64,000 nt of DNA, from positions 1 to 64,000 of the forward strand of contig NZ_RAWE01000026.1 of assembly GCF_003611695.1 (NCBI RefSeq). Reading direction: 5' to 3'. The position numbers and the translations under genes are program-made. Below, in pieces: positions 1,365 through 58,995 of this stretch. The notes beneath the pieces were generated by a model. That model saw only the letters and a program-made list of their open reading frames with translations. It searched no databases and had not been told where the DNA came from. How positions within the stretch are numbered: position 1 is the stretch's first letter; each line of letters begins with the position of its first letter. This DNA is from Corallococcus carmarthensis (lineage in GTDB: Bacteria > Myxococcota > Myxococcia > Myxococcales > Myxococcaceae).

Positions 1365-2873
1365 GTGCTTCCTCAGTCCGTGCCCGCCTCCCCCAACCTG
1401 TCCCGCCGGCTCGCGAAGCTGACGTCCATCCTGGATGTCGCCAAGGCGATGAGCGCCGAGCGTGACCTCGACCTGCTGCTGCCCCTCATCCTCTATGAGG
1501 CCACCAAGGTCGTGGAGTCGGACCGCTGCTCGCTCTTCATCCTGGACCGCGAGCGCGAGGAGCTGTGGAGCAAGGTGGCCCAGGGCTCCAAGAATGAAAT
1601 CCGCCTCCCCATGGGCAGCGGCATTGCCGGCCAGGTGGCCCACACCGGCGCCGTCATCAACATCCCCGACGCCTACGCCGACCCCCGCTTCAACAGCAGC
1701 TTCGACGTCTCCAGCGGCTACCGCACCCACACCATCCTCTGCGTCCCCATGCGCGACGCCAACGGGGACGTGACGGGCGTCATCCAGGCCCTCAACAAGC
1801 GCGGCGGGCGCGTGTTCGATGCCGAGGACGAGGAGCTGCTGCTCGCCCTGGGCGCCCAGGCGGCCGGCGCCATTGAAAACGCCCTCCTCCACGAGGAGAT
1901 CAACCGCCTCTTCGAGGGCTTCGTCTCCGCGTCCGTCGTCGCCATCGAAGCGCGCGACCCCACCACCGCGGGCCACTCCGGCCGCGTCGCGGACCTCACC
2001 GTGTCCCTGGCCCAGGCGCTGGAGCACCACACCACCGGCCCCTATGCCCAGACGCGCTTCACCGCCGTGGAGCTGCAGGAGCTGCGGTACGCGTCTCTGT
2101 TGCACGACTTCGGCAAGGTGGGCGTGCGCGAGAACGTGCTCGTCAAGGCGGAGAAGCTCTACCCGCATGAGCTGGAGACGCTGCGCGCCCGCTTCCAACT
2201 GGCTCGCAAGGACCTGCAGTTGCAGAGCTCCCGGCGCCGGCTGGCTTCCGTGGAGGCTCGCGGCCTGTCCGCCCTGCCCACCATCCACCAGGAGGAGGAC
2301 GCGCGGCTCGCCCAGGAGCTGGCGCAGTTGGATGAGGTGATGTCCTTCCTGCTCACCTGCAACAAGCCGACGGTGCTCGCGCAGGGCAACTTCGAGCGGC
2401 TGCTGGAGTTGGGCAAGCTCAGCTACACCGACGCGCACGACCATGGACAGCCGCTGCTGCTGCCCAATGAGATCCAATCCCTCTCCATCACCCGCGGCAC
2501 GCTCTCCCCGGAGGAGCGCCGCGAAATCGAGAGCCACGTCGACCACACGTATCGCTTCCTGTCGCAGATTCCCTGGACGCGCGCGCTGCGCCGCGTGCCT
2601 GAGATTGCATACGCGCACCACGAGAAGCTGGATGGCACGGGCTACCCTCGCGCCATCCCGGAGATTCCGGTGCAGTCCCGGATGATGTCCATCTGCGACA
2701 TCTACGACGCGCTCACCGCGAGCGACCGGCCCTACAAGAAGGCCGTGCCGCACGCGTTGGCGTTGGACATCCTCAAGAAGGAGGCGGGGTCCGGACAGCT
2801 GGACAAGGACCTCTTCACCATCTTCGTCGATGCGGAGATTCCCCGCCGGGCGCTCAAGAAGCGCCCGGCGTAG
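1365..2873 (+). CDS. GAF and HD-GYP domain protein, probable c-di-GMP phosphodiesterase
   Basis: Residues about 20-175 form a GAF sensor domain and residues about 185-500 an HD-GYP domain. The HD dyad is H247-D248 with K251 (HDFGK), and the GYP signature is HHEKLDGTGYP at 418-428. HD-GYP proteins hydrolyse cyclic di-GMP using a bound metal pair. The domain is split: about 105 residues, partly charged and helical, lie between the HDFGK helix and the segment that normally follows it. The frame is open from GTG 1278, but the first 29 residues look like untranslated leader. I chose GTG 1365, which has a GGAG about 10 bp upstream. Activity is inferred from motifs; the effect of the insertion is unknown. 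Confidence 0.88.
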   Translation: MLPQSVPASPNLSRRLAKLTSILDVAKAMSAERDLDLLLPLILYEATKVVESDRCSLFILDREREELWSKVAQGSKNEIRLPMGSGIAGQVAHTGAVINIPDAYADPRFNSSFDVSSGYRTHTILCVPMRDANGDVTGVIQALNKRGGRVFDAEDEELLLALGAQAAGAIENALLHEEINRLFEGFVSASVVAIEARDPTTAGHSGRVADLTVSLAQALEHHTTGPYAQTRFTAVELQELRYASLLHDFGKVGVRENVLVKAEKLYPHELETLRARFQLARKDLQLQSSRRRLASVEARGLSALPTIHQEEDARLAQELAQLDEVMSFLLTCNKPTVLAQGNFERLLELGKLSYTDAHDHGQPLLLPNEIQSLSITRGTLSPEERREIESHVDHTYRFLSQIPWTRALRRVPEIAYAHHEKLDGTGYPRAIPEIPVQSRMMSICDIYDALTASDRPYKKAVPHALALDILKKEAGSGQLDKDLFTIFVDAEIPRRALKKRPA

Positions 2874-2882
2874 CACCCGGAA

Positions 2883-4313
<1,431 letters not shown>

Positions 4314-49719: not shown

Positions 49720-50322
49720 TCAGGTGCCCCGGCCGTAGAACCACGCGGTGAGAGCCAGGCGGGAGGCGTGGGCGGGCAGCACCTCGTGCTCCAGCCGCTC
49801 GCTCAGGAACACCACCAGGCGGTCCAGCACGGGCGCCACCTCCACCGGGGCGCCGGTGTCCTCCGGGAAGAGGCGCAGGAGGCCGCCGTCCTGCGGCGTC
49901 CAGCCCGCGTTCGCGTACCAGATGGCGGTGAGCCGGCGGTTGGACTGGCCCGGGAACGCGTCGCGGTGACGGGCGTAGTGCGCGCCGCCGCCTGGGTAGC
50001 AGGCGAGCTGCACGTCGAAGCGCCCCAGCCCCAGGTACGCGCCCGAGGACACGGCCTCTCCCAGCGCCTGGAAGCGATGCCACAGGGCTTCGAGTTCGGG
50101 GGCCGCGCCGGGCAGCACCCATTCGATGTGGTCGCCGCGCACGGAGGTGTCGAGCGAGTGGTCCGCGCCGCGCCGGATGCCCGCGGGCTTCAGCGTCCCG
50201 GCCTCCACGCGCGCGAGCGCCGCGGCCCGCACCGCCAGGGCCCGCGCCTCCCCGAGGAAGCCGTCCCGCACGAAGTACCCGTGCGAACCCAGGGCCTCCA
50301 CCTCCGCGTCCGTCAGCTCCAC
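49720..50322 (-). CDS. 2OG-Fe(II) oxygenase (prolyl 4-hydroxylase type)
   Basis: A 200-residue cytoplasmic dioxygenase that should use 2-oxoglutarate, oxygen and iron(II). The HxD pair is H119 and D121 (YARHRDAF), the distal His is H179 (LEHEVLP), and R188 (SRLALTAWFY) should hold 2-oxoglutarate. The arrangement is that of the EGLN/prolyl 4-hydroxylase branch. The target is unknown; bacterial relatives can hydroxylate proteins such as elongation factor Tu or free amino acids. It is convergent with the DAG-repeat lipoprotein gene and divergent from the DUF4230 gene. Confidence 0.92.
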   Translation of the reverse strand: MELTDAEVEALGSHGYFVRDGFLGEARALAVRAAALARVEAGTLKPAGIRRGADHSLDTSVRGDHIEWVLPGAAPELEALWHRFQALGEAVSSGAYLGLGRFDVQLACYPGGGAHYARHRDAFPGQSNRRLTAIWYANAGWTPQDGGLLRLFPEDTGAPVEVAPVLDRLVVFLSERLEHEVLPAHASRLALTAWFYGRGT

Positions 50323-50414
50323 CGTGTCTCTCCATCCCGAGCGCCTGTCCGGAAGCCCGCGTCCGCACGCTGCCCCAGGACGCCCCTGTTCCGGAAGCGG
50401 GTAGACTTCCCGCC

Positions 50415-51032
50415 ATGGCGAAGAACGTCTCGCGAGCCCTGTCCCTCCTCGCCGCGGTCGCGCTCGGCGCGCTGGGGGCCTGGGTGCTGCTGCGTCCCGC
50501 GTCCTCCCGGCTGCCGGATACAGCGGCGGTGGTGGAGCAGATGCGGGAGGTGGCCCGGCTGGAGACGCTGGACGTGTCCCTCTACAAGAAGGTCACGTTC
50601 ACACCGGAGCCGCAGGCCACGGACGCGCTGTGGAAGGACGTGCTGCTCTGGGCCAGCTACACGCTCCAGAACCCGCACGGCCGCGCCATCGTGTTCGCGG
50701 ACGCGCACCTGGGGTTCGACTTCCAGCGCTTCGATTCGAGCCACCTGCACGCCGTGGGCACGCGCGTGGACGTGCTCCTGCCGCCCATGCAGGTGACGGT
50801 GGCGCTGCGGCCCGGGGAGACGGAGATCATCGACTCCAACCTGGACAGCACGCAGACGGCGCAGCTCCTGGAGAAGGCGCGTCTGGCTTTCGAAAAAGAG
50901 GTGCGGCAGGACCGGCGCCTCCAGGAGAAGGCGCGGCAGTCCGCGGAACGCTCGCTGCGGGGCCTGCTGCTCACGCTGGGCTTCCGCGAGGTGCGGTTCG
51001 TGGAGACCCTGCCGGTGGGGAGCGCGGGATGA
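50415..51032 (+). CDS. DUF4230 membrane-anchored protein
   Basis: 205 residues. One N-terminal membrane segment ([18 protein letters not shown]) is followed by an outer domain with the DUF4230 pattern: [43 protein letters not shown] and a helical end ([23 protein letters not shown]). It belongs to a widespread family of unknown function. Its TGA overlaps the ATG of the macro-domain gene, so the two are probably coexpressed and may work together. Confidence 0.85.
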
Positions 51033-51541
51033 CCGAACGTCTGGAGTTGATTCAGGGAGACATCACGCGCTTCGCGGTGGATGCGGTGGTGAACGCGGCG
51101 AACTCCGCGCTGTCCGGTGGCGGCGGCGTGGATGGCGCCATCCACCGCGCGGCGGGTCCGGAGCTGGTCGCGGAGTGCCGCACGCTGGGCCGCTGTCCCA
51201 CCGGGGAGGCACGCATCACGAAGGGCTACCGGCTGCCCGCGGCACACGTCATCCACGCGGTGGGCCCCGTGTGGTGGGGCGGGGACCGCGGCGAGGACGC
51301 ACTGCTGGCTTCGTGCTACCGCAGCGTGTTCGCGCTGATGGAGCAGCACGGGCTGCGCACGGTGGCGTTCCCCTCCATCTCCACGGGCAGCTACAGCTTC
51401 CCCATCGAACGGGCCGCCCCCATCGCGTTGCGGGAGATGCGAGAGGCACTGGCACGTCGGCCGGAGCTGGAGCGCGTCACCGTGGTGCTCTTCAGCGCGC
51501 GCGATTTGAAGGTGTATCAGGAGGCGCTCAGCGCTCCGTAG
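51029..51541 (+). CDS. Macro-domain protein (O-acetyl-ADP-ribose deacetylase type)
   Basis: A 170-residue stand-alone macro domain. The ADP-ribose pocket is marked by [18 protein letters not shown] (N22, N25), the glycine loop [11 protein letters not shown] with D35, and [12 protein letters not shown] around residues 112-123. Relatives of the YmdB/MacroD class remove acetyl or ADP-ribose groups. The gene is coupled to the DUF4230 gene by an ATGA overlap. It ends 7 bp before the convergent ParB-like protein gene. Confidence 0.93.
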
Positions 51542-51548
51542 TGCCGCA

Positions 51549-52568
51549 TCAATTCCCGCGCGCCCAGGCCCAGTCTCCCACAAACCCTTCCCAGTCCTCG
51601 GCGGTCACACCGTCAGGCCGCCGAGGATGGGACCGCAACACACTGGCCTGCCAATCGGATTTCTGGATGGGCCAGGCCCGTGTGATGGCGCCAGGCGACG
51701 TCCCACCACTCCTCGGGTTGTCGTGCTCGAACCGGGTCGGATGGGTGATGACAGGCCAGAGCCCCAGCAGAGGAGGCATGGCGCCTTCAAGCAGGGCGGC
51801 GTGGATCCGGTCATGCCCATCCACCACCAACCACTTTTCTGGCAGTTCCATGTAGAGCAGCAACGCTGGAGGGAGCGTTCCGTCCCGGACGTGCTTTCGC
51901 CAGGCCTTCACGCGGCTGGCGTCAGGACGTGAAGGCTCCCGCAGGGCCAGCACCGCCCCCATCTTCGCTTCTGGCCAGAGCTGGGCGTCCGAGCTGCTCC
52001 ACGACCATCGCTCGACCCAGAAAGGGTCGAAGCGCAGCGCGGTCTCCAAGGCGTAGGGCGACGCCGGTGGATAGCCAGGACCATTGCCCGGCGGGGAGTT
52101 GAGTTGGGCACGCTCTTCGGGAACCACCCGCAGCGGATGCAGGGACCAGCGACCGGAATGGAGCACGGTGGCGGTCGCGGCCTCCAACTCGCGCGCGAAG
52201 TGCCACGTCCAGGACTCCCACCAGCTCCGGGAACCCGATTCATGGGGCACGCCCCGCGCCTGCGTGGCCTGGATGGGCGCAAGGGCCCAGGGAAAGGGCG
52301 GACGGGCGGGCCCTCTCAGGACGCCACAGCAGGACCAGCGGAAGTGGATGCGCATCCAGAAAAGCGGCTGCCCCTGGCTCATCAGCCGGATCCCCTCCTC
52401 CGAGGAGGCCTCGAAGTGCAGGGAAGGCCGCTGCCGCCAGATTCCTTCATGCGGCACGACCATGCCCAGCCCCGGGCCCGAGGACGCCCGCCACTCCCTG
52501 TCGTCCGGCCCCACGATGAAGCGTCCCGCCATCTGGCCCTTCGTCCCTTCCACGGCCGGGTGCTTCAT
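51549..52568 (-). CDS. Hypothetical protein with ParB-like segment
   Basis: 339 residues, not a recognised family overall. Near residues 225-265 it has VKAWRKHVRDGTLPPALLLYMELPEKWLVVDGH then DRIHAALLEG (quoted in pieces), which resembles the ParB/Sulfiredoxin-type core motif of a nucleotide-binding fold. The rest is Trp- and Pro-rich. Its ATG overlaps by 4 bp (ATGA) the stop of a truncated copy of the TPR gene tail at 52565. That overlap implies it was originally the second gene of an operon with the TPR gene now ending at 54814, before a reverse-transcriptase cassette separated them. Confidence 0.7.
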   Translation of the reverse strand: MKHPAVEGTKGQMAGRFIVGPDDREWRASSGPGLGMVVPHEGIWRQRPSLHFEASSEEGIRLMSQGQPLFWMRIHFRWSCCGVLRGPARPPFPWALAPIQATQARGVPHESGSRSWWESWTWHFARELEAATATVLHSGRWSLHPLRVVPEERAQLNSPPGNGPGYPPASPYALETALRFDPFWVERWSWSSSDAQLWPEAKMGAVLALREPSRPDASRVKAWRKHVRDGTLPPALLLYMELPEKWLVVDGHDRIHAALLEGAMPPLLGLWPVITHPTRFEHDNPRSGGTSPGAITRAWPIQKSDWQASVLRSHPRRPDGVTAEDWEGFVGDWAWARGN

Positions 52569-52748
52569 CCCGGCCGCAACACATCGCCGTCCAGCGCGAA
52601 CACTCCGTTCGGTGCGTGCCCCAGCGCTGCGAGCCTCCTCACCGATTCACCGTCCGAGTCGCGGTACAGGAGCGCCACCTCGCGCCGGCCCAGGCTCACG
52701 CGCAGCGGGCCTCCGCCCTTGGCTGCCTCCAGCCTTCGACGCTGCGAC
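52565..52748 (-). pseudogene. Orphaned 3' end of the TPR gene
   Basis: The minus-strand frame encodes SQRRRLEAAKGGGPLRVSLG and continues to a stop at 52565. It matches the C-terminus of the TPR gene at 54814-56091 at about 90% of bases. It has no start or upstream domain of its own. Its stop still overlaps the start of the 51549-52568 gene by 4 bp, showing it is the ancestral tail of the interrupted gene. Confidence 0.85.
52601..52748 (-). repeat. 148-bp direct repeat, left copy
   Basis: Aligns without gaps to 54859-55006 with about 15 differences by eye. It flanks the reverse-transcriptase cassette on its left. The divergence argues against a fresh target duplication and for an incoming tail from a related strain. 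Confidence 0.85.
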
Positions 52749-52766
52749 CATTGGAATTCACCCAAT

Positions 52767-53186
52767 CATTTTCGTCAGCGCACAGACGACATGTTCTCTA
52801 GAGGAGAACTGATTCGCCGCCGCAGGGGCCCCAAGCCTAAGCAGCAGTGCGCCTATCCTATCAACAGGGCACTCTGCGATGCTTGATACTAGCGCTGGGC
52901 ATCCGCAAGTGCACCTCACGTATATCTTGCCCGCGAGAATAATTTCTCCTGCGGCGATCACTCCCCTCCACCTGAACACCCGCACAGGCAAGCAAACCCC
53001 AGGACATATAGGGAGGCTGGGTGGCCCAAGACCCAATTGGTGAAAACGACCAAGGCCCTGCAATACTATCATCCAATCAGACAGGTCCGCCGCTAGGACA
53101 CTTGCCCCCATCAATTACACCAAGCGCCCCTCCCATCTCCTCAGTGTCCGCAGAACAGTTCACCCAGCAAACTTGACGATTAACAT
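52767..53186 (+). other. Non-coding leader upstream of the reverse transcriptase, possible structured RNA
   Basis: 420 bp without a convincing gene. Possible hairpins are GTTCTC/GAGAAC (52793-52809), AGTGC-CC/GG-GCACT (52846-52873), TGGGT/ACCCA near 53019-53035 and TTGGT/ACCAA (53037-53053). Several defence reverse transcriptases, such as DRT2 and DRT9, have a partner non-coding RNA upstream; this could be one. The stems are short and no covariation can be tested here. No ribosome-binding site precedes the ATG at 53187. Confidence 0.35.
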
Positions 53187-54740
53187 ATGAGCACCAGCCC
53201 AAGCCCCTCAGACACAGACATCATTCGCGCTCTAGAACTCGTAACAGAAGACCAGCGCGGAGATCTGTTTTACAAGCACCCTTTTGAGATCGACATTCTC
53301 AAGAGAGACCTATCGTGGCTTGAGCGCATCTCCACACAACTCGCCGAAAACAAGTACACTGCAGCGCAGGCCCGACCTGTAGATGTCCCAAAGCCCGGAT
53401 ACCACATTCGCCCGGCGGCACACCTCTCACTAGAGGACCAAGTCGCGATAAGCTACCTCCTAATTAAGTGCAAGCAAACAATAAGCAAGGCCATCTCCTG
53501 GTCGGAAGGAACAATTCGCCAGTCTCATTGGATCTCAGAAGGAGGCAGTTGGTTTAAGGACGCATACAGCGGATGGAAACACTTCCGCGAGAAGTCCATT
53601 CAAACCATCCTTAATGGCGCGAAATTCGTCTTCATCACCGACATTTCTGGCTACTACGAAAACATAGACCTATCAAAACTTTCTTCGGACCTCAAAAACC
53701 TAAGCATTCCCACAAAGACAGCTGATCAGATCTCAAGTTGCCTAAACAAGTGGGCTGGGCCGAGGCGGCGAGGCATTCCTCAAGGCTACAATCCGAGCCA
53801 TCTACTTGGAGAACTCTACCTAGACTCATTCGATCACAACCTACAAGACGAAGGCTTTACGCATCTCCGCTATCTCGACGACATCCGAGTTTTCGCCAGA
53901 ACAGAACAAGAAGCGCGGCGAGCACTTCATAGAGTGACCGTGCTCCTTCGTGAACGCGGACTCAACCTCCAGACATCAAAAAGCAAGATATTGTCGGGAG
54001 ATGAAGCAACCGCCCTTTTTGATGGCGTCGCTCCAATAATAAAGAACGTGAGCGAAGAAATCGCTAAAGAGCTCGATCTACTGGAAGAGATTGGCTACGT
54101 CGGAATGGAAGAGTCCAGACGAGCACTAGAAAATCTTTCATCTCCACCTCTCGAAGTACTCCAGCGAACCTGGAGACAGTTCGAACAGGGAAGTCTAGGC
54201 GGATTTGACAAGACCCTTTTTCACTATCTTTTGAACCGTCTAGGCAAGGCCAAGGTTCCTGATGCAGTTGATTATAGCCTGCGACTGCTGACTGAGCGCC
54301 CAGAAGAAACATCCACATGCCTCCACTATCTTCAGCAGACAAATGGGCGGGAAGCCGAGATCGCCAAAGCGGTAGCTGAAATAATCCAGAGCCGCGACAC
54401 CCTCTTCATCCACCAAGTCTACACCTGCCTGAGATGGCTATTCGACAACAAGCTTAGAATCGAATCAGTAGTAGAGCACTGTCGCTCGCTCTCCACTTGG
54501 TCGCCAGAACGTTTTATTGTTCGCCCATATGCAATTGCATACATTGGTCTCTTTGCGTCACTCAGAGACTTCGAGCGCCTGGAAGGACTCTATAGAGACT
54601 CTTCCGACTGGCTAGATCGAGCAACTGTAATCTGTGCCTATCGGAACGCCATCATCGATATGCGGAACGCCTTTTATGGCCGAGTCAGAGGCGAACACGA
54701 GCTAGTGGACAGAGCAATCGCATACTCCAAAGCCGCATAG
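53187..54740 (+). CDS. Reverse transcriptase of Abi/unknown-group (defence) type
   Basis: 517 residues. RT motifs: A is TDISGYYENI with D152, B is GIPQGYNPS (196-204), C is YLDD at 229-232, and D is the lysine region QTSKSKIL (262-269). The palm is active by sequence. The N-terminal 140 residues include HLSLEDQVAISYLLI, as in Abi and UG enzymes. The C-terminal part (about 285-517) is all helical with repeat-like spacing and no maturase, endonuclease, protease or nitrilase domain, recalling the helical repeats of AbiA/AbiK-type RTs. GC and codon use differ sharply from neighbours, a sign of transfer. It is not a clear retron, group II intron or DGR enzyme. Confidence 0.88.
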   Translation: MSTSPSPSDTDIIRALELVTEDQRGDLFYKHPFEIDILKRDLSWLERISTQLAENKYTAAQARPVDVPKPGYHIRPAAHLSLEDQVAISYLLIKCKQTISKAISWSEGTIRQSHWISEGGSWFKDAYSGWKHFREKSIQTILNGAKFVFITDISGYYENIDLSKLSSDLKNLSIPTKTADQISSCLNKWAGPRRRGIPQGYNPSHLLGELYLDSFDHNLQDEGFTHLRYLDDIRVFARTEQEARRALHRVTVLLRERGLNLQTSKSKILSGDEATALFDGVAPIIKNVSEEIAKELDLLEEIGYVGMEESRRALENLSSPPLEVLQRTWRQFEQGSLGGFDKTLFHYLLNRLGKAKVPDAVDYSLRLLTERPEETSTCLHYLQQTNGREAEIAKAVAEIIQSRDTLFIHQVYTCLRWLFDNKLRIESVVEHCRSLSTWSPERFIVRPYAIAYIGLFASLRDFERLEGLYRDSSDWLDRATVICAYRNAIIDMRNAFYGRVRGEHELVDRAIAYSKAA

Positions 54741-54813
54741 AAGCGTCCATGTCGACAGGCCATTTGGCGGCGGCCGATCGAGCAGAGACTATTCTCAAAA
54801 TCAAAGCGTTCGT

Positions 54814-56091
54814 TCACGCCAAAAACAAATATGATCCCTCCAACAGGAACACCCCAGGCACTCCGTCCGGCGCATGTCCCAGTTCAGCAAGCCTCCGCAC
54901 CGATTCACCGTCCAGGTCGCGGCACAGGAGCGCCACCTCGCGCCGGCCCAGGCTCACGCGCAGCGGGCCTCCGCCCGTGGCGGCCTCCAGCCTGCGACGC
55001 TGCGACTTCGTGAGCAGCCGTGCGCCGTCGTGCCCGTCGCCGCCCGCCACCGCCCAGATGCCGGAGAACGCCTCCGCCAGCCGCACCTCGCCCTGGTCGA
55101 TGACGACGGGCCGCACGTCGGCGGGACGCAGCTCCAGGTTGTGCCACGCCGCCGCGTCCACCGCTTCCAGCGTGAGCCCCGCTTCCTTCAGCGCGGAGAC
55201 GGGCAGGTAGCGCACGAACTCCGCGTCCTCCAGCACGTAGAAGACCTCCAGCCCCGCAGGCCCGGGACGGAACAGCGCGCCCTGCGTCCCCGCCACGAAG
55301 CCGGAGGGCCGCAACACCGGGCGCAGCGTGTCCAATGACACACCCGTGGGCCCCACGCCCGAGGACAGGCCGCCCAACCTCGACGCCAAGGCGTCCACGT
55401 GCGCGGTGAGCCCCTGCGCTCCCGGTGCCTCGCGATACGCGGCATACAGCGAGCCCACGTCCACGCGGCCCACACCGCCCGAGGCCAGCTTCACCAGCAG
55501 GTCGCGGCCCTGGCGCCGGAAGGCCACTCCCGCCCGGCCCAGCGCGGCGGTGAGCGCGGCGGTGAACTCCGGGCGCAACACCTGCTCCTCTGGCATGGGA
55601 GGCGGAGGCAGGTCCACGGCCTCCAGCTCCGCGCGCAGCAGCTTCGCCTCCGCGTCGAAGGGGTCGCGCTCCACCGCCTCGGCCACGTAGGCGCGGGCGC
55701 GCTCGCCCTCTCCCTGCCGCAGCGCGAGCACGGCCAGCACCTTGAGCGCCTCCGGGTCACCCGGGCTCAGTGCCAGTGCCTCCCGCAGCTCGGCCTCCGC
55801 TTCGCGGTGCCGCTCCAGGCCCAGCAGCGCTCGCGCGAGGCCCAGGCGCACCTGGAGGTCCTTGGGGAAGTCACGCCGCAGGGCCTGCATCAACGGTAGG
55901 GCCTCCCGCTCCGCGTCCGCGTTGACCAGCGCATGCGCCACGGTGAGGCGCAGCGTGGGGCCGGGAGCTCGCGCGGCCTCGGCACGCAGCGACTCCAGCT
56001 CCGCGCCGCTGAGCACTTCACCCGCCTCCACCTTGCGGCGCAGGCGCTCCAGTTCCGCCGGGGAAATCACGCGCGGACAATAGTGGTCCAC
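54814..56091 (-). CDS. TPR protein with DUF1444-like C-terminal domain
   Basis: 425 residues. Residues about 10-165 are TPR helices (for example LQVRLGLARALLGLERHREAE). The C-terminal half (about 180-420) is mixed alpha/beta and resembles DUF1444, with LLVKLASGGVGRVDVGSLYAAYRE. The last 50 residues and stop lie in the 148-bp repeat and the incoming cassette: the final VFLLEGSYLFLA is encoded by low-GC sequence, whereas the original tail is left at 52565. So the present C-terminus is a replacement. ATG 56091 is used; GTG 56070 is also possible. It is divergent from the CBASS-like operon. Function unknown. Confidence 0.8.
   Translation of the reverse strand: MDHYCPRVISPAELERLRRKVEAGEVLSGAELESLRAEAARAPGPTLRLTVAHALVNADAEREALPLMQALRRDFPKDLQVRLGLARALLGLERHREAEAELREALALSPGDPEALKVLAVLALRQGEGERARAYVAEAVERDPFDAEAKLLRAELEAVDLPPPPMPEEQVLRPEFTAALTAALGRAGVAFRRQGRDLLVKLASGGVGRVDVGSLYAAYREAPGAQGLTAHVDALASRLGGLSSGVGPTGVSLDTLRPVLRPSGFVAGTQGALFRPGPAGLEVFYVLEDAEFVRYLPVSALKEAGLTLEAVDAAAWHNLELRPADVRPVVIDQGEVRLAEAFSGIWAVAGGDGHDGARLLTKSQRRRLEAATGGGPLRVSLGRREVALLCRDLDGESVRRLAELGHAPDGVPGVFLLEGSYLFLA
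54859..55006 (-). repeat. 148-bp direct repeat, right copy
   Basis: Coding part of the TPR gene C-terminus, about 90% identical to 52601-52748. Beyond 55006 the similarity stops because the left copy is truncated there; beyond 54859 the cassette sequence begins. Confidence 0.85.
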
Positions 56092-56225
56092 GCCAGCAGC
56101 GCCCAGCCCGGAACGCTGTCGTACTCCTGGCCCGACACCAGCCCCCTCGGGCGGATGAAGAAAATCGACGGTGCCGCGATGGCTTTTCCTGCGCCTCGCA
56201 TCTTTGGGAATGAGGGAACCATTTC

Positions 56226-58025
56226 ATGAGTGAACCACATACCGCTCCCCCCGCTGGACTCATCCTGCTGTCCCATCCGGAGCAACGCCCCATCACGCCA
56301 CTAGAGGCGGTCCAGGCACTGCCCCCCAGCGCAATGAGCCTTCCGCGCGTCACGGTGGAAATCGACATGGCGGATGCCGCACAGCAGGCCATCCGCTCTC
56401 GGGACTGGAGCGCAGCCCACCGAACCCTGGAACAGCTGTTCAAGGACCAACTGGAACCCCAACTGAAGCAATACCCCGGCTACCGGGTGGTCTATCTGGG
56501 CTCTTCCTCCATTCCGCTGACGCTCTATCTCGGCGCACGCGTCCATACATGGAGGCAGATCGAGGTCATTCCCCACCACCACGTGCATCGGACTTGGGGA
56601 TGGCACTCTGAGCCTGGAAGTCCTGCGGCGCGACTGGCGCCCATGCGGCTTCCCACCGAGCGGGACAGGACTCCTGGAGAGGCTGTCATCCGGGTTTCGA
56701 CATCCCATGTCGTCGACCCCCAAATGACTCGCAGAGTCGTACCGACACCCATGGTGGAGATCGACATCGCGCTGGAGCAGCCCTCCGAGGACGCCTTCTC
56801 CACGCCGGATGAGATGCAGGCGGTGGCCAGTGCCTTCCGGCAGGCCCTGGATGTGCTGGGGGACCAATTCACGGGAGTCCAGCGAGTGCACCTGTTCGCA
56901 TCCGTCCAGCCCGGCATGGCGTTCCTGCTGGGAGCGCAGATCAGTCCGACGATGCATCCGGCCATTCAGACCTACCAGTACACCCGGAGCCAGGAGCAGG
57001 GAACGTTTCACGCGCCTGCCATCCTTCTCAATCAGCCGCCACCGCCAGAACGGATTCCCCTCACCGACGAAGCCATCCGCCGAGCCCAGGTGGACCGTGA
57101 ACAGCTCGCGGCGGACCTGGAGCGAATGAAGGGGTTCGCGACCACTGCATCCAGGATCTCCTCCTCATGGCTTGCCCAGGTGCTCGGTCCGAAAGAAGGA
57201 ACGGCAGGCGTTGCGCCCCACTGGACGCATCTTCCCACGCTCGGAGAGACGCCGCTGCACAACGCGTCCGTCGACCTTGACAGCCGGACGGTCCCCGACA
57301 GCTTCACATTCTCTCAGCGTGGGGCCTGGCAACTGGACGATGTATGGCTGGATCAACTCGCACGCCGGTTGGCAGACGCACCGTCACGGCAGCAAGCCTT
57401 GCGCTTGCTGGTCCTGCACGAGTTCGCGCATCGGGGGCCACAAGCACTGACCCGCTCGTCGAGCCGTGAAATCGGCCGCTTCCCCAAGGTTCTGGAGGAG
57501 GTCGACTACCAAGCCGATGTGTGGGCCATGCTTCACGAGTACGCGCTGACTTCTCTGCACCATCCTCGTGAAGCGGCAGACGTCAGGGCCTTCTTCATGA
57601 ACATGGTTCTCATCGCCACGAACACAATGTGGGCATTCGATGACTCCGGCCCTCCTCCTGTGGAGTTCCAGGTCCGCCGTCTCAATCGCTATCTCATCTG
57701 GTACTGGCAGTACCTTCTGCTAGAGCGAGGCGCCGGAGCAGGACGTGAGACTCCGCTCGACTTCGTGCTCGGACTGTTGACCCACCGTCCCGTCATCGAA
57801 CTGGCCGGCCCCAACGTCCACACCCACGATGAGCGCGTCTATTTCGCGCTCGACCATGCGCATCTGAACATTCCTGAACTGGCCATCTACCACCAGGGCC
57901 GCCTCTTCAGACACGGCGCTCGCGCGGACTTCTCGCTCACGGAACTGATGGCCCGCGTCCGCGCGCGCGATGGCGAGGGGATCCTGTCGGTCCTCCGCTC
58001 GGCCTTTGAACAGACGGTCCGCTGA
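56226..58025 (+). CDS. SAVED-domain protein fused to an HExxH putative metalloprotease (CBASS effector)
   Basis: 599 residues. Residues about 38-125 and 175-255 form two related Rossmann-like halves of a SAVED domain, which binds cyclic oligonucleotides. Each half has a VEID start (43-47, 177-180), a central helix and a strand with small residues (RVVYLGSSSIPLTLYLG; VHLFASVQPGMAFLLG). After a helical linker, a C-terminal domain (about 365-500) holds HEFAH at 398-402 in LLVLHEFAH and, 25 residues on, EEVDYQADVWA (E425, D427, A430, D431). This is like the ExxAD helix that supplies the third zinc ligand in M48-type zincins. The CD-NTase gene starts 25 bp downstream. Inference: a cyclic-nucleotide-activated protease that harms the infected cell. 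Confidence 0.8.
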   Translation: MSEPHTAPPAGLILLSHPEQRPITPLEAVQALPPSAMSLPRVTVEIDMADAAQQAIRSRDWSAAHRTLEQLFKDQLEPQLKQYPGYRVVYLGSSSIPLTLYLGARVHTWRQIEVIPHHHVHRTWGWHSEPGSPAARLAPMRLPTERDRTPGEAVIRVSTSHVVDPQMTRRVVPTPMVEIDIALEQPSEDAFSTPDEMQAVASAFRQALDVLGDQFTGVQRVHLFASVQPGMAFLLGAQISPTMHPAIQTYQYTRSQEQGTFHAPAILLNQPPPPERIPLTDEAIRRAQVDREQLAADLERMKGFATTASRISSSWLAQVLGPKEGTAGVAPHWTHLPTLGETPLHNASVDLDSRTVPDSFTFSQRGAWQLDDVWLDQLARRLADAPSRQQALRLLVLHEFAHRGPQALTRSSSREIGRFPKVLEEVDYQADVWAMLHEYALTSLHHPREAADVRAFFMNMVLIATNTMWAFDDSGPPPVEFQVRRLNRYLIWYWQYLLLERGAGAGRETPLDFVLGLLTHRPVIELAGPNVHTHDERVYFALDHAHLNIPELAIYHQGRLFRHGARADFSLTELMARVRARDGEGILSVLRSAFEQTVR

Positions 58026-58050
58026 AGGACCTCATCCCCCAGGAGTCACC

Positions 58051-58995
58051 ATGACGATGCAGTCACGATTCCGGCGTTTCCACGAAGCCATCCAACTGAA
58101 GCGCTACAACGAGAACGCAGGGCTCGTCGAGAAGCGGGACCGCGTGCTGAGGCGGCTGCGTGAAAACGCGCCACGGTCCTTCGAATTCTTCAACCAAGGC
58201 AGCTATGCCATGGGCACCGGCATCAAGCCCCTGGATGGCGACTACGATATCGACGTCGCCATTGTCTTCGAGCTCAACCCTCACGCTTTTGACCCCGTCG
58301 AGGTCAAGCGCTGGGTCTACAGCGCGGTCGCGTCACACACCAGCCGGGTAGAGTGGCGGAGGTCCTGCATCACCGTCTATTATCAACAAGCAGGCGAGGC
58401 GGTGTATCACGTCGACTTGGCGGTCATGGCTCGCACTCCCAATTCGCGGGGCTTCCATCTCGCGATTGGCAAGGAGCACTCCGCCGACAGCCAACGCAAG
58501 TGGCAACCTGACGATCGGCAGGGCTTCATCGAAGCAGTGGAAAACCGTTTCTCTGGCGAGGAGGCAGCCCAGTTCCGCCGGGTCATCCGCTACCTGAAAA
58601 GGTGGAAGGATCATCACTTCTCCTTGGAAGGCCGGGCAGCGCCCACGGGCCTCAGCCTGACAGTCGCTGCCTACAAGTGGTTTCGGCCCAGCCAGGGCTC
58701 CACCTGGATGGGAACGGAGGAAAGCGACCTCGCGGCGACGCTCAACCTGGTCAAAGACATCCGACGTAACTTCAGCCAGGTCTGGGACTCGGATACCAAT
58801 AGGAGCATTCCCCGCCTCTCGCTACAGTTTCCGAATGCGCCCTTCGATGACGTGCTGAAGCGAATGACCCATCAGCAGATGGAGGAATTCCACCAGCGCA
58901 TCGTGAAGCTGGATGCCTGGCTGGAGCACGCGAATAGGACGGGCTCTGTGACATCCCTCACGTCCGCTTTCGGGGATGACTTTCCTGACGACTGA
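58051..58995 (+). CDS. CD-NTase (cGAS/DncV-like nucleotidyltransferase)
   Basis: 314 residues. The nucleotidyltransferase signature is G50-S51 in NQGSYAMGT, followed by D66 and D68 in DYDIDVAIVF and a third carboxylate D122 in YHVDLAVM. The C-terminal half is helical, as in OAS/DncV-type enzymes. These enzymes make cyclic di- or trinucleotides after phage infection. It is the second gene of a two-gene operon with the SAVED effector, 25 bp apart, with CAGGAG 5 bp before ATG 58051; the open extension to 57970 is rejected. No Cap2/Cap3 genes are adjacent, so this would be a type I CBASS layout. The product nucleotide cannot be predicted from motifs alone. Confidence 0.88.
   Translation: MTMQSRFRRFHEAIQLKRYNENAGLVEKRDRVLRRLRENAPRSFEFFNQGSYAMGTGIKPLDGDYDIDVAIVFELNPHAFDPVEVKRWVYSAVASHTSRVEWRRSCITVYYQQAGEAVYHVDLAVMARTPNSRGFHLAIGKEHSADSQRKWQPDDRQGFIEAVENRFSGEEAAQFRRVIRYLKRWKDHHFSLEGRAAPTGLSLTVAAYKWFRPSQGSTWMGTEESDLAATLNLVKDIRRNFSQVWDSDTNRSIPRLSLQFPNAPFDDVLKRMTHQQMEEFHQRIVKLDAWLEHANRTGSVTSLTSAFGDDFPDD

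Follow-up and report, generated by a model that had tools for sequence, protein, structure and literature searches.

How does the gene for a low-GC reverse transcriptase (RT) come to lie between two copies of the 3' end of a neighboring protein-coding gene? The question is raised by a locus in the window analyzed here, a stretch of 64,000 nucleotides from Corallococcus carmarthensis (contig NZ_RAWE01000026.1, positions 1 to 64,000), in which a TPR-repeat gene (TPR in the following) ends within sequence that its relatives do not share. An earlier note, made from the letters of the sequence, had proposed that an RT cassette integrated into the 3' end of this gene and supplied it with a replacement tail. 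We compared the locus with the corresponding region of related genomes, examined the RT and its homologues, and weighed several ways in which the present arrangement may have arisen.

Two copies of the TPR tail flank a low-GC block

The features of the locus are collected in Table 1. TPR does end in low-GC sequence at position 54814, as the earlier note had described, and a second, truncated tail is indeed present on the far side of the RT gene, where it overlaps the start of the next gene by four bases (ATGA). The reading frame of this left tail (L) is open up to position 52765. Together with the right tail (R), L forms a direct repeat (52601-52748 and 54859-55006) of 148 bp that aligns without gaps, with 133 identities and exactly 15 differences, where about 15 had been counted before. 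When 60 first-order Markov sequences of equal length were searched, the top ungapped match over 148 nt had 74 identities, so the likeness of the two tails is far above chance.

Table 1. Features of the TPR locus, in window coordinates
Feature	Position	Strand	Basis or remark
TPR-repeat gene	54814-56091	-	ORF; 3' end in foreign sequence
Part of TPR homologous to relatives	54836-56091	-	In 16/16 genus genomes including its own; blastn homology to 15 congeners down to 54835/54836
Right tail copy (R)	54836-55006	-	Part of the TPR gene
Foreign end of TPR, last 6 codons (SYLFLA) and stop	54814-54835	-	Without counterpart in the tails of 15 congeners
Low-GC inserted block, 2,087 bp, 51.2% GC	52749-54835	.	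GC content and alignment with relatives
UG21-type RT gene, 517 aa	53187-54740	+	PADLOC RT_UG21; Pfam RVT_1
438-bp stretch 5' of the RT gene	52749-53186	.	Without ncRNA or protein family match
Left tail copy (L), truncated on its 5' side, with ancestral-type end and 9-bp in-frame deletion	52565-52748	-	Alignment
339-aa gene of unnamed family	51549-52568	-	4-bp overlap with the stop of L
Macro-domain gene	51032-51541	+	Pfam Macro, 6e-45; converges on TPR in 9/15 congeners
CBASS pair (SAVED/peptidase effector and CD-NTase)	56226-58995	+	5' side of TPR; second insertion

GC content between the tails is 51%, compared to 69.9% for the window, and GC at third codon positions (GC3) is 53% in the RT gene vs. 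88% in TPR. Homology of R with the relatives extends to position 54836; L carries its deletion in that same region but keeps the ancestral-type end. Because the relatives' homology with R stops at 54836, we delimit the foreign block as 52749-54835, and the foreign sequence within TPR comprises its last six codons and stop. Direct repeats flank the block, one of them containing the end of the target gene, as in CIMEs. At its left edge, the block starts with a short palindrome whose arms (ATTGG/CCAAT) are 5 bp long, and the RT gene is the sole gene recognized within it.

The sequence around the RT gene was searched for further features. Positions 50000-57000 gave no match to Rfam at E values up to 1. 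The upstream stretch folds only slightly better than its shuffled versions (z-score of -1.88, with 4 of 100 shuffles as good), and a 118-aa ORF on its minus strand had no Pfam match above the cut-off. No sigma-70 promoter was found within 52500-55010, where 1.2 would be expected by chance. Both the upstream stretch and the segment on the other side of the RT gene (54741-54858) were present in 1 of 96 family genomes, namely their own.

The reverse transcriptase and its relatives

The translated RT gene matched the PADLOC RT_UG21 model with an E value of 2e-171 over residues 8-516 of 517, and the next best model was Drt8 (1.7e-52). By its sequence, the protein is a member of UG21, a defense-associated family, and it presumably acts against phages. 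It contains the residues YLDD, which we take to be the catalytic YxDD motif, and D231 is invariant in an alignment of five sequences. An AlphaFold model built with an alignment of five sequences (mean pLDDT of 73, with 76 residues below 50) shows an RT fold, after which residues 319-516 form an all-helical C-terminal part. The best PDB matches of the RT by Foldseek were DRT4, a group II-like RT, and UG15; group II intron RTs, AbiA, AbiK, and DRT6 came next. Scaled by query length, the TM-scores were ~0.4-0.55.

Class 1 UG RTs are described in PMC13174585 as RTs fused to helical repeats that make untemplated DNA, as far as they have been studied. The RT at the TPR locus resembles these UG/Abi-group DRTs in its full-length match to the PADLOC UG21 model and in its all-helical C-terminal half, the latter as in the class 1 systems of that source; it differs in being only 22-31% identical to the relatives that we found. 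UG21 may likewise carry out untemplated DNA synthesis. UG21 is mentioned in PMC8934634, and the literature that we searched yielded no functional test of UG21.

UG21 is rare. Of 195 genomes from the phylum, its own was the one in which the RT was found at an E value of 1e-25. When the RT was used as a query against 98 genomes at an E value of 1e-10, three additional, remote RTs were recovered that are 25-33% identical over part of the sequence; one of them belongs to a congener (G015), where it is 31% identical over 166 residues and is sited elsewhere in the genome. Among plasmids, the RT matched 29 records, one of which, a haloarchaeal plasmid, covers at least 80% of the RT at 27% identity. 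A pattern search of genome contigs gave no confirmed RT among 124 pattern matches, and a search of genome contigs with a two-sequence alignment returned four distant UG21 relatives among 100. For the haloarchaeal-plasmid RT and for all four genome-contig relatives, the UG21 model was the best match. Viral contigs provided none that could be confirmed (0 of 5 and 0 of 131), and none was found in phages.

The TPR site in congeners and the history of the two tails

TPR is present in all 15 congeners, with a single tail in each; the genome studied here is the only one with two. None of the 15 carries this RT, and none has the 51549-52568 gene at the TPR site. On the 3' side, the neighbor of TPR is a macro-domain gene in nine congeners and, directly, a DUF4230 gene in five, while in the last (G015) we found an insert of 3.2 kb (L043:6711-9812) that contains a HipBA-type pair, a methyltransferase, and a MerR-type regulator (named by eye) and that is not accompanied by a duplicated tail. 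On the 5' side, where the window has its CBASS pair, 12 congeners have <100 bp of intervening sequence, and longer intervals are seen in G013 (3.0 kb), G015 (1.4 kb), and G001 (0.55 kb); a CBASS pair was found at none of the 15 congener loci. As a side observation, the 5' interval of G013 (L036:10838-13850) holds a lanthionine-synthetase-like gene pair, again named by eye. Since both flanks vary among relatives, TPR sits between two spots that take up new genes; since the 51549-52568 gene is absent from the relatives' site, the insertion on the 3' side in the window includes that gene as well as the RT gene.

Homologues of the 51549-52568 gene occur in 38 of the 95 other family genomes, mostly at 43-56% identity and in several of them in two copies. 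Among some 50 listed matches, we examined 29 loci, and in none of them was the TPR tail located upstream of the homologue. One locus (L064) has a weak TPR-repeat match (E value of 0.009), which is not the tail. The VDGHDRIHAA stretch in the gene product presumably recalls ParB/sulfiredoxin-like folds.

These comparisons bear on several expectations of the earlier note. It had predicted that an empty site would show TPR overlapping the 51549-52568 gene, an arrangement that we saw in 0 of 15 congeners; as no relative has it, the view of L as the "old" tail is left without support from synteny. On the other hand, the two observations that the note had named as speaking against it, namely, relatives with two tails and a low-GC end in lineages lacking the RT, did not appear when we looked for them (two tails in 0 of 15 relatives; the low-GC end at 54741-54858 in 0 of the 95 other family genomes).

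We then compared the tails themselves over 141 aligned columns. L and R differ from each other at 15 positions, and 10 differences separate each of them from the nearest relative (G009); the mean between near species over these columns is 14.25. Since the divergence between L and R is about that between near species, a fresh duplication is unlikely, which suggests that the copies parted about as long ago as the species did or derive from separate genomes. A tree of the tails had no starred branch and left the placement of both L and R unsettled. Seven states in L and three in R are private, i.e., found in no relative. All seven in L are A on the gene strand in place of C or G and none is T, an outcome with a chance of ~1 in 64 if A and T were equally likely, and most of the changes in both tails run from G/C to A/T.

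At eight positions, R has a state that differs from that of G009 and is not found in L; all eight lie within the 3' 57 of the 141 columns (0 of 84 vs. 8 of 57; Fisher's exact test, 0.0005, or 0.006 when weighted by where near species differ, with the split having been chosen after seeing the data). This clustering, which is suggestive only, is what would be expected if a crossover separated a native upstream part of R from an incoming downstream part. Splitting the tails at the assumed crossover leaves the total number of changes the same, and several of the R states are also found in other species, G013 above all. L and R also have two states in common against G009, which slightly favors a shared origin within this lineage. 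Near the start of the repeat, the nearest relatives of TPR change, from G003 and G011 upstream to G009 and G005 within it, a sign of past recombination that is compatible with more than one model.

The proposal that R is a replacement tail needs to be narrowed in light of these data: the SYLFLA codons and the stop of TPR have a foreign sequence, but 54836-55006 is homologous to the relatives, so the right tail is not foreign as a whole. Given that L and R are equidistant from G009 and that the tree settles neither, the arrival of R with the cassette is plausible but unproven.

How the block may have entered the TPR locus

The reading that we favor, with a probability of roughly 0.48, is that the block is a decayed or integrase-less, CIME-like insertion of foreign DNA that swapped tails at the 3' end of TPR and carried the UG21 RT as cargo. 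The incoming DNA, probably in a circular or attP-like form, would have carried a version of the last 150-170 bp of TPR. Campbell-type recombination within the tail would then have preserved a whole TPR gene with an exchanged end, R being the incoming tail, and would have displaced the truncated tail to the far side, beside the 51549-52568 gene. A recombinase that acted in this process would since have been lost. That the 2.1-kb block lacks an integrase, as noted earlier, was borne out by our searches, and no conjugation genes were recognized in it either. A search for tyrosine integrases (PF00589) found none on the window's contig and, in 16 genomes of which several offered contigs of only 10-20 kb, none up to 50 kb from the TPR site; the nearest PF00589 match was a fragment 56 kb from the TPR site in G011. 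It is because no integrase was found in the block or near the site that we read the element as decayed or integrase-less, and for the same reason a lost recombinase and plain homologous recombination remain close rivals.

The earlier note had likened the arrangement to integration into the 3' end of a tRNA gene, but in a protein gene. The insertion does lie where a protein gene ends; the logic itself has precedents, in icd/icdC around prophage e14 and in elements at fda, rpmG, and rpsI. In Escherichia coli K-12, e14 sits in the 3' end of icd, which keeps a whole reading frame, and a truncated tail (icdC) follows on the far side, with the two tails sharing 153 of 165 bp (counted from the sequence record). 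A further likeness is in the cargo, which in e14 includes the restriction gene mcrA. In contrast, e14 is 15.2 kb long and has intE/xisE, whereas the RT element is 2.1 kb long and without an integrase, and the last codons of its target gene are foreign.

CIMEs, as characterized in PMC7563491, are 1.2-13 kb long, carry cargo but no recombination genes, and lie in tandem with ICEs or IMEs at the 3' ends of rpmG, rpsI, and fda. Most IMEs with a single tyrosine recombinase, according to PMC5704250, use specific sites that include the 3' ends of tRNA genes or housekeeping protein genes, which are not disrupted. Compared with what the two sources describe, the block agrees with CIMEs in its size range, its cargo, its lack of recombination genes, and its place at a protein-gene 3' end. 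It differs in that the CIMEs described there are in tandem with ICEs or IMEs, whereas at TPR we found no integrase-bearing relative or defined att core. Judged by these analogies, the layout of a gene with a swapped end, cargo, and a truncated tail is already known from e14 and CIME-like elements and is not unprecedented. What appears to be new, within a limited literature search, is the presence of UG21 RT cargo in a Myxococcus-like host and the uptake of defense genes on both sides of one TPR locus.

The locus illustrates how a single-gene defense RT can enter a chromosome with its target gene left unbroken. If the favored tail-swapping insertion is correct, the 3' end of TPR would be an attachment-like site in the genus as well as a handle for finding further defense genes and their recombinase. 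The cargo taken by this spot differs by species, with CBASS at the other side of the gene in the window and a HipBA-type pair in one relative.

The main rival, which we consider less probable, is RecA-type homologous recombination without a site-specific recombinase, involving either a circle or a linear fragment of another Myxococcus-like genome in which the RT gene lay beside a TPR tail. Homology at one end, combined for linear DNA with an illegitimate join at 52748/52749, would produce the same duplicated tail. This would agree with the lack of a tyrosine integrase near the site, and homology was available in the form of the 148 bp at 90% identity, although that stretch is short and imperfect. 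The donor would also have needed the right tail fragment beside the RT gene, which we did not find in 96 family genomes, and the palindrome at the left edge could instead be part of a recombinase site.

We consider it rather improbable that the second tail arose in place, i.e., that the insertion duplicated ~150-170 bp at the end of TPR, with the two stretches diverging afterwards under relaxed constraint and AT-biased mutation. The two states common to L and R against G009 would fit such a history, as would the seven private A states of L and the prevalence of G/C to A/T changes in both copies. Against it, the divergence between L and R equals that between species and yet the block keeps its foreign GC content, and R still belongs to a conserved gene. 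Target duplications made by transposases are far shorter, which also counts against a duplication of this kind.

There is very little chance that the arrangement is an assembly artefact or a contaminant joined into the contig: the assembly is a draft of 530 contigs and the block occurs nowhere else in the family, but its two edges fall inside a single contig of 69 kb and are flanked on both sides by syntenic sequence, and contamination would not account for a second TPR tail. Equally slim is the prospect that the UG21 RT aided its own insertion, in which case a target-primed or template-switching copy would have made the tail duplication and error-prone copying would have given the A states of L; if true, this would be a defense RT acting as a retroelement.

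The idea of a diversity-generating retroelement (DGR), with L as the template repeat, R as the variable repeat, and an RT that mutates A positions, draws on the position of the RT gene beside the duplicated 3' end of TPR and on the 8 of 15 differences that fall on the 23 A's of L (Fisher's exact test, 0.0003), but it is contradicted by the polarity of the changes and by the RT family: at seven of those eight A sites the state usual among near species is found in R, which makes L the changed copy and the direction wrong for a DGR, while the other 7 of the 15 differences are not at A and the RT is of the UG21 family rather than a DGR RT.

Three further identities were rejected. For a group II intron, there was no domain V or Rfam match in 50000-57000, and the RT scored 77.9 bits vs. 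a cut-off of 300. Integration at a tRNA end was set aside because the window contains no tRNA gene. For an integron cassette, no RYYYAAC...GTTRRRY pair 45-170 bases apart was present in 52749-54860; the pattern is strict and makes for a weak test, having also passed over an attC-like stretch on a cyanobacterial contig. On that contig (L084:408-3800), a UG21 RT gene (2029-3615) lies 637 bp from a divergent integron integrase gene (TIGR02249, E value of 1e-133), and it is the palindromic stretch after the RT gene that resembles attC by eye. UG21 RTs may travel as integron cassettes.
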